From Chloroflexota bacterium (GTDB lineage Bacteria; Chloroflexota; Dehalococcoidia; Lucifugimonadales; Lucifugimonadaceae): a DNA stretch of 64,000 nt. Within the stretch, counting starts at the first letter, position 1. Each line of letters opens with the position of its first letter. Below the pieces are notes generated by a model. The model did no database searches. It saw nothing but the letters and a program-made list of their open reading frames with translations, and had not been told where the DNA came from. Below, piece after piece: positions 17,142-18,994 of the stretch. The translations under genes were made by a program, and so were the position numbers. Where the stretch lies: the NCBI GenBank assembly GCA_029262735.1, contig JAJCYY010000010.1, forward strand, positions 1 to 64,000, read 5' to 3'.

Positions 17142-17813
17142 TCAATCTGCGATTGCCAGGTCAACTTGGCGCTCCGCCAGCACCTTCTCTATGACTTCAA
17201 TGAACGCCTCGATCGGCTGCGCCCCCACAATTCCGTACTTGTCCTCGACCACAAACGACGGCACGCCGTTCAGGCCGATCATCATCGCTTCGTCGTGTTG
17301 CTGCTGCATGATGCCGTCGTAGAGACCGGTTTCGAGGCGTGGCGCAAACTCAGCCCAGTCGAGGCCAGATTCCGTCATCAACCGTTCCAGAATCGAGTGG
17401 TCACCGAGGTTCTCTGAGTCTTCCCAGTACGCGCGATAGAGACGGGAGTGAAATCCGTCGACCAGCGCCTCGTCTCCGTTTTTTGATGCGATCTCAGCGG
17501 CGTAGATGGTCGCCGCCTGTGCAGGGCGCGTATAGGGAGTCAGCGAGCCCGGCTCGCGGCGCATGACAATGCCTTCGGACTTCGCCATCGCCTCGATGCG
17601 CGGCCACGTCGCGCTCCGATGGTCGCCGGGGCCCGGCTTCCACACGCGGCCCTCCGGCGGAATTTCGGGATGCAGGAAGAACGCGCGGTATTCAACCCGG
17701 ATCGGGAACTGTTTGCGGAGTTTTTCGAGCCGAGCCAGCCCGATGTAGCACCAGGGTCAGATGTAGTCGTACCAGACTGTGAAAGTGACTGGATCGTTAT
17801 CAATCTGCGTCAT
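17142..17813 (-). CDS. DsbA/FrnE-family oxidoreductase, probable selenoprotein (in-frame TGA as Sec19)
   Basis: From ATG 17813 (GGAG 8 nt upstream) the frame reads MTQIDNDPVTFTVWYDYI, then TGA at 17759-17757, then PWCYIGLARLEKLRK and on to the stop at 17142, 224 codons with the stop. Family members read VWYDYICPWCYIG here, so the TGA sits exactly at the first, nucleophilic cysteine of the CPWC motif. The rest is an intact FrnE/2-hydroxychromene-2-carboxylate-isomerase-like thioredoxin fold: FHSRLYRAYWEDSENLGD in the helical insert, and GVPSFVVEDKYGIVGAQP with the cis-proline. The simplest reading is a UPWC selenoprotein. Alternatives are a TGC-to-TGA sequencing error or a fresh nonsense mutation. 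It is 29 nt downstream of the SelA-like gene. Confidence 0.8.
17730..17743 (-). promoter_or_regulatory. Candidate bacterial SECIS stem-loop
   Basis: Downstream of the TGA the mRNA can form UCGGG-CUGG-CUCGG, nt 17-30 counted from the U of UGA. The short stem contains G-U pairs and the apical loop carries adjacent guanines at nt 24-25. Bacterial SECIS elements lie within the coding region just after the UGA with a G-containing apical loop; the placement is close to that in E. coli fdhF. The stem is short, so the evidence is moderate to weak. Confidence 0.4.
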
Positions 17814-17842: not shown

Positions 17843-18994
17843 TTACCTGGTCACAACGTCCCTGATGGCCTTGCCCACGATCTCGGGCTGTCCCGCGTCG
17901 AGGCCGAAGACGTGCAGGGTGATGCGGGTTGCTCCGTCCGGCACGCGAGTCCAGATAGCCGGCTCGTACTCTCGCAGCGCGTCGACAACATCCTGGTTCG
18001 TCTTTCCAGTCACCGCAGGGTCGACCGTAACAAACACACCGAACGGCTGATGGCCGATAATGTTCTGGTTCATCTCGACGGTGACGCCGGGAATATCTCT
18101 CAGCGGCGCGGCTATTTCGTTCGACAACTTTTCTGCGTAGGCCAGGCGGTCTTCGTGGTTGATGCCGAACCACCGCTTGACTGCCGCCACAACGCCTACA
18201 ATCTCCTGCCGGTCCATTTTCTGCGGCCTTCCAACGCCTCGGATGCGGCGCGTCTCGTAGCCGGTGAACGACTGCAAGCTGATCAGGTGGATCATCTCCT
18301 CCGTACCGAGCGCCATGCCGGTGGAGTGCGGAGCACCCATGTACTTTGCAGCGATGCACTGGAAGTCGGCGCCCATACGCACGTACTTGCCGAAATTCTC
18401 AAGAGGGAAGATCTGTCCCGCAGCGTCGACCGTCACATAGACGCCCTTATCGTGCCCGATCTCGATGACTTTCTCAAGTGAGAGGATGTTCGGGTCGACC
18501 GGGTCCTGTTCGTGCACGTAGTAGTGGACGGCAACGGTGTTAGGTCCAATAGCGTCGATCAGGTCCTGTTCGGTGGTGCCTTCGTCCGTGCCATACTCAA
18601 CAAGTTTTGCCCCGGCGAGCTCCAGGCAGCGGTCATACCAGTAGCGTTGCCTCTTCTGGATCAGGATTTCATCCTTCATCCCTGAAGTGTCGGGAAGCTG
18701 TTCGATCTTGTCGTCGTCGTCACCTGCCATCATCGCCGCGGTCACCAGTGTGAGGGCGGAGCCTGCGCCCGATGTGAAGTAAGCGGCGGGAACCCCCACG
18801 GCATCTGCGACAACCTTGCCGGCTGCCAACTGCAAATCAATCAGCGGGATGAATGCGCTGTCTGCGGCGTCCATCGCATCCTTGACTTCCTGCACCGGCG
18901 TTGAGCCGCCGAGGAGCGTCACGCTGCCCGTTGCGTTGATGACCGGCGTTGCGCCCAGTTCTTTGTATATTGCTCCCCACTCAGAGGTGACCAT
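17843..18994 (-). CDS. SelA-like PLP-dependent enzyme (SelA/DgaE superfamily)
   Basis: The 383-residue protein has a fold-type-I PLP pattern: INATGSVTLLGGSTPVQEV near the N-terminus, YFTSGAGSALTL, VTVDAAGQ with the cofactor Asp190, and GADFQCIAAKYMGAPHSTG with the probable Schiff-base Lys217. These match the SelA-related group that includes D-glucosaminate-6-phosphate ammonia-lyase and other lyases. It is shorter than true selenocysteine synthase (about 460 residues) and lacks its N-terminal domain, so I do not call it SelA. GGAGTAAGGC precedes the ATG. A lyase or transferase on an amino or sugar acid is the most likely activity. Confidence 0.8.
   Translation of the reverse strand: MVTSEWGAIYKELGATPVINATGSVTLLGGSTPVQEVKDAMDAADSAFIPLIDLQLAAGKVVADAVGVPAAYFTSGAGSALTLVTAAMMAGDDDDKIEQLPDTSGMKDEILIQKRQRYWYDRCLELAGAKLVEYGTDEGTTEQDLIDAIGPNTVAVHYYVHEQDPVDPNILSLEKVIEIGHDKGVYVTVDAAGQIFPLENFGKYVRMGADFQCIAAKYMGAPHSTGMALGTEEMIHLISLQSFTGYETRRIRGVGRPQKMDRQEIVGVVAAVKRWFGINHEDRLAYAEKLSNEIAAPLRDIPGVTVEMNQNIIGHQPFGVFVTVDPAVTGKTNQDVVDALREYEPAIWTRVPDGATRITLHVFGLDAGQPEIVGKAIRDVVTR

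Follow-up and report, generated by a model that had tools for sequence, protein, structure and literature searches.

A FrnE-type DsbA-family gene of Chloroflexota with a conserved in-frame UGA, very probably read as selenocysteine

In the window, that is, the whole stretch of 64,000 nucleotides analysed here, we describe a minus-strand gene whose UGA codon 19 is almost certainly decoded as selenocysteine (Sec) in a FrnE-type, probably cytoplasmic, putative thiol-disulfide oxidoreductase of the DsbA family. Selenocysteine replaces redox cysteines in such enzymes and is encoded by UGA together with a nearby stem-loop. The first-pass annotation, made from the letters of the window, had already proposed a Sec-containing oxidoreductase, and this reading is now supported by a UGA conserved in many genomes, by the Sec machinery of the same genome, by a conserved hairpin and by the DSBA domain of the product, from which we infer the insertion of Sec itself. 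The features of the gene are collected in Table 1.

Table 1. Coordinates of the proposed selenoprotein gene and of its functional sites in the window
Feature	Position	Strand	Remarks
Proposed selenoprotein gene, FrnE/DsbA family	17142..17813	minus	223 residues; Sec = residue 19; terminal TGA 17142-17144
UGA codon inside the frame, very likely read as Sec, position 1 of the U-P-W-C redox motif	17757..17759	minus	TGA kept in homologues across the order and the phylum
Codon of Cys22, presumed resolving cysteine of UPWC	17748..17750	minus	only cysteine in the protein
Gly-Val-Pro, residues 183-185	17259..17267	minus	placed by FrnE alignment; presumably the cis-proline loop position of the thioredoxin fold
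bSECIS-like hairpin UCGGGCUG-GCU-CGGCUCGA (minimum-energy form)	17725..17743	minus	folding and synonymous-codon test

Reading frame and domain family

From ATG 17813 the frame reads MTQIDNDPVTFTVWYDYI, then the TGA of codon 19, then PWCYIGLARLEKL..., and 204 codons follow the internal TGA before the terminal stop. The 18 residues, the TGA, the PWCYIGLAR stretch and the intact family C-terminus in the same frame, all of them described in the first-pass annotation, were found again, and the read-through protein is made up of a single DSBA domain (E 5.1e-33 for residues 12-206 with Pfam PF01323). The placing of the TGA at the first Cys of CPWC also held, as the CPWCYIG of FrnE aligns with UPWCYIG; the CPWC-type motif that the FrnE subfamily (PF01323) requires is thus present, with U replacing the first C. 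The best solved relatives are the FrnE structures PDB 5CNW and 5CP1 (phmmer E 6.6e-25), which, like FrnE DR_0659 of Deinococcus radiodurans (PMC8945050), share with the window protein the fold family and the motif position, FrnE having Cys where the window protein has Sec. No NCBIfam family scored above its cut-off for the window protein.

DR_0659 carries a C-terminal CXXXXC pair, present in many FrnE members although not in all, whereas this pair is absent from the window protein, whose only redox residues are Sec19 and Cys22. Given that the same pair is also missing in the FrnE of S. roseofulvus and D. maricopensis (PMC8945050), it does not define the subfamily. FrnE proteins have been described as cytoplasmic thiol oxidoreductases, and a frnE mutant of Deinococcus showed greater sensitivity to cadmium and diamide (PMC8945050); at the N-terminus of the window protein a signal peptide is not evident. 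When the 64-kb window was scanned for other TGA-interrupted genes, this gene was recovered, and none of the other candidates showed a convincing motif. Just upstream, and on the same strand, lies an aminotransferase-V-like PLP gene (17843-18994), with the ATG of the selenoprotein gene 29 nt past its stop, and both genes also adjoin each other in three genomes of the same genus (87-89% identical).

Conservation of the UGA and of the hairpin behind it

In a sample of 250 genomes of the order, 134 match the protein, and 108 contain a TGA-form homologue (E about 1e-25 or better); nearly all the close homologues in these 108 genomes have one in-frame TGA. In the 78 TGA genes that were read in detail, the TGA stands at the identical codon without exception (78/78), usually in the context DYI-U-PWCY(I/V)GL, and it is retained down to about 30% protein identity. 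SelB was matched in 98 of the 108 TGA-form genomes and was not found in the other 10, all of them draft MAGs of 56-91% completeness; the lone CPWC homologue found within the order belongs to a genome (G150) that has no SelB match. In the phylum sample, the TGA form is present in many other Chloroflexota, including other classes, alongside Cys forms. The named-genome scan gave a single close relative, which is a MAG from Chloroflexota. Relatives with either U or C at the site, which the first-pass annotation had suggested looking for by alignment, do therefore exist, U being common and C rarer, with the downstream frame intact. A UGA aligned to the Cys of homologues and a UGA conserved in independent genomes, two of the features that mark a bacterial selenoprotein, are both found here.

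The stem-loop expected near the UGA was found as well, in the form of a conserved SECIS-like hairpin; in the window gene it begins 13 nt past the UGA, and its apical loop, GCU, begins 21 nt past the UGA and has G in first place; among homologues the apical region mostly opens with UGG. Published bSECIS limits are a stem of 4-16 bp, a loop of 3-9 nt with G in one of its first two positions, a distance of 16-37 nt from the UGA and an energy of at most -7.5 kcal/mol (PMC13188914), and both the hairpin of the window gene (-10.2 kcal/mol) and those of 74 of the 78 Sec genes lie within them. Against dinucleotide shuffles, the sequence after the UGA showed no excess stability, since a GC-rich coding background is in itself prone to fold. 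For this reason eight-codon windows were instead folded and compared with synonymous versions that follow the codon usage of the genes themselves. In this test only 0.28% of 5000 synonymous versions of the window gene were equally stable, and in the Sec genes, which are related and do not amount to 78 independent trials, the excess stability was clear only for windows starting 3, 4, 5 and 6 codons after the UGA (mean z -1.3, -2.3, -2.2 and -1.1); at other starts the mean z ranged from about -0.6 to 0.4, and it was close to 0 for codon +7 and beyond. The Cys homologues at the same place gave a mean z of about -0.5, in a control set (n=12) that is small, partly drawn from a divergent CPH clade and hence imperfect. 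For the seven tested pairs, 79% of cells form in 87 distinct Sec sequences vs. 56% in Cys genes. Sliding the 3' side by 1 to 3 towards 3' lowers pairing in the Sec sequences to 20-36%, and after sliding it by one towards 5', 60% still pair, which fits a second register in the AGG-CTC sequences. Pair 6-16 alternates between C-G and G-C, along with the choice of Gly and Leu/Val codons.

Sec machinery and other readings of the UGA

The source genome is a 4.29 Mb draft MAG in 115 contigs, 90% complete, and the Sec system that had been predicted for the host is borne out in it by searches made one family at a time, with tRNA-Sec (anticodon TCA, UCA in RNA) on contig C47 (Rfam 68.5 bits; ARAGORN tRNA-SeC), SelB on C9 (337.8 bits), SelA on C13 (459.7 bits) and SelD on C17 (370.5 bits). 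With an estimated contamination of about 6.3%, a contig bearing machinery could in principle be foreign, but SelB is also present in genomes of the same genus. SelD (C17:73505-74431; locus L018 near 1531) is itself a selenoprotein, its catalytic codon being an in-frame TGA in G-U-A-G-K. On C47 (L003), a 406-residue ORF that looks integrase-like by eye (270-1490) lies tail to tail with the tRNA-Sec gene (1497-1594), 6 nt separating its end from the 3' end of that gene. This arrangement suggests an integrative element with tRNA-Sec as its attachment site.

Other readings of the internal UGA have to be weighed against Sec. Since the source is a draft MAG, the TGA might be a sequencing or assembly error for TGC or TGT, or the gene might be a decaying pseudogene; nevertheless, the same TGA recurs in independent genomes, both within the genus and as far away as other classes, and its retention at the low protein identities given above argues against both. 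In addition, differences between the window gene and its same-genus homologues downstream of the TGA are concentrated at third codon positions (in one example, with 195 codons, 36, 27 and 113 differences at positions 1, 2 and 3), so that this part is, judging by its substitutions, under purifying selection. We consider error or decay exceedingly improbable, and the same holds for a true stop at the UGA followed by a restart. An ORF with a GTG start at 17645 does exist and would give a separate protein of 167 residues, but this product would have neither the active site nor the beginning of the fold, and the residues between the TGA and that GTG are conserved in homologues.

For any in-frame TGA one may also think of a reassigned UGA, or of read-through by a near-cognate tRNA (e.g., Trp or Cys), in place of Sec. 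Against this, UGA also terminates the window gene and many of its homologues, the site is Cys in the Cys homologues, the SECIS-like hairpin is kept directly downstream, and the Sec machinery is complete, all of which make such decoding very unlikely. Our preferred reading is therefore still that of UGA as Sec, in which the bSECIS would recruit SelB and Sec-tRNA(Sec), the latter made by SelA and SelD, and the ribosome would insert Sec at the UGA with no termination.

Known class, proposed catalysis and evolution

The class itself is known since 2005, and the window gene adds a member to it. DsbA-like (COG2761) selenoproteins were reported from the Sargasso Sea (PMC1088965), the DsbA 1 UxxC selenoprotein from GOS (PMC2398784), and DsbA-like form 1 is listed in a 2026 inventory (PMC13188914). 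By its published description, this form 1 (UxxC, PF01323, COG2761) has the same domain and U position as the window protein, besides a bacterial SECIS downstream and known Cys homologues. In contrast to the metagenome reads and scattered entries of those reports, the gene is found here in Chloroflexota genomes together with the machinery. Sec forms are more numerous than Cys forms among the close homologues of the order, and this predominance is the modest new point of our work; in the literature searched, of which coverage was partial, we found no description of the prevalence of a FrnE-type selenoprotein in Chloroflexota.

The same genome contains a second DsbA-family gene with an in-frame TGA (C56:9632-10273; L002 1526-1528), whose motif DYT-U-PWV matches DsbA 3 (UxxV, PF01323) of GOS (PMC2398784) and, unlike the window gene, has no resolving Cys. 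Its TGA is conserved in dozens of relatives, and in some genera (g5, g10) the relatives are uninterrupted, several of these genomes having no SelB match.

As to catalysis, the Sec19 selenol would attack substrate disulfides, or become oxidised, and Cys22 would then resolve the Se-S intermediate. Having only these two redox residues and no C-terminal CX4C pair, the enzyme would be renewed by an external reductant or thiol system. Its substrates and catalytic direction we infer likewise, and it may work as a reductase, an isomerase or an oxidase.

On a tree of 120 proteins built with the Sec/Cys site masked, the two states require at least 4 changes, and Cys forms are nested inside Sec groups. 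This suggests a Sec ancestor, on a tree whose sampling favoured sequences near the window gene and whose root is arbitrary. That FrnE-type DsbA was ancestrally a selenoprotein in Chloroflexota, with Cys forms arising repeatedly, is an idea we put forward tentatively, as somewhat short of an even chance; if true, it would turn round the common view, which has Sec taking the place of Cys in scattered species. Because standard gene callers take the UGA as the end of such genes, a presumed redox enzyme is likely misannotated in more than 100 genomes of the order. These Chloroflexota would appear to employ selenium in an enzyme that handles disulfides, and the family, its SECIS being well defined, lends itself to comparisons of Sec with Cys versions.
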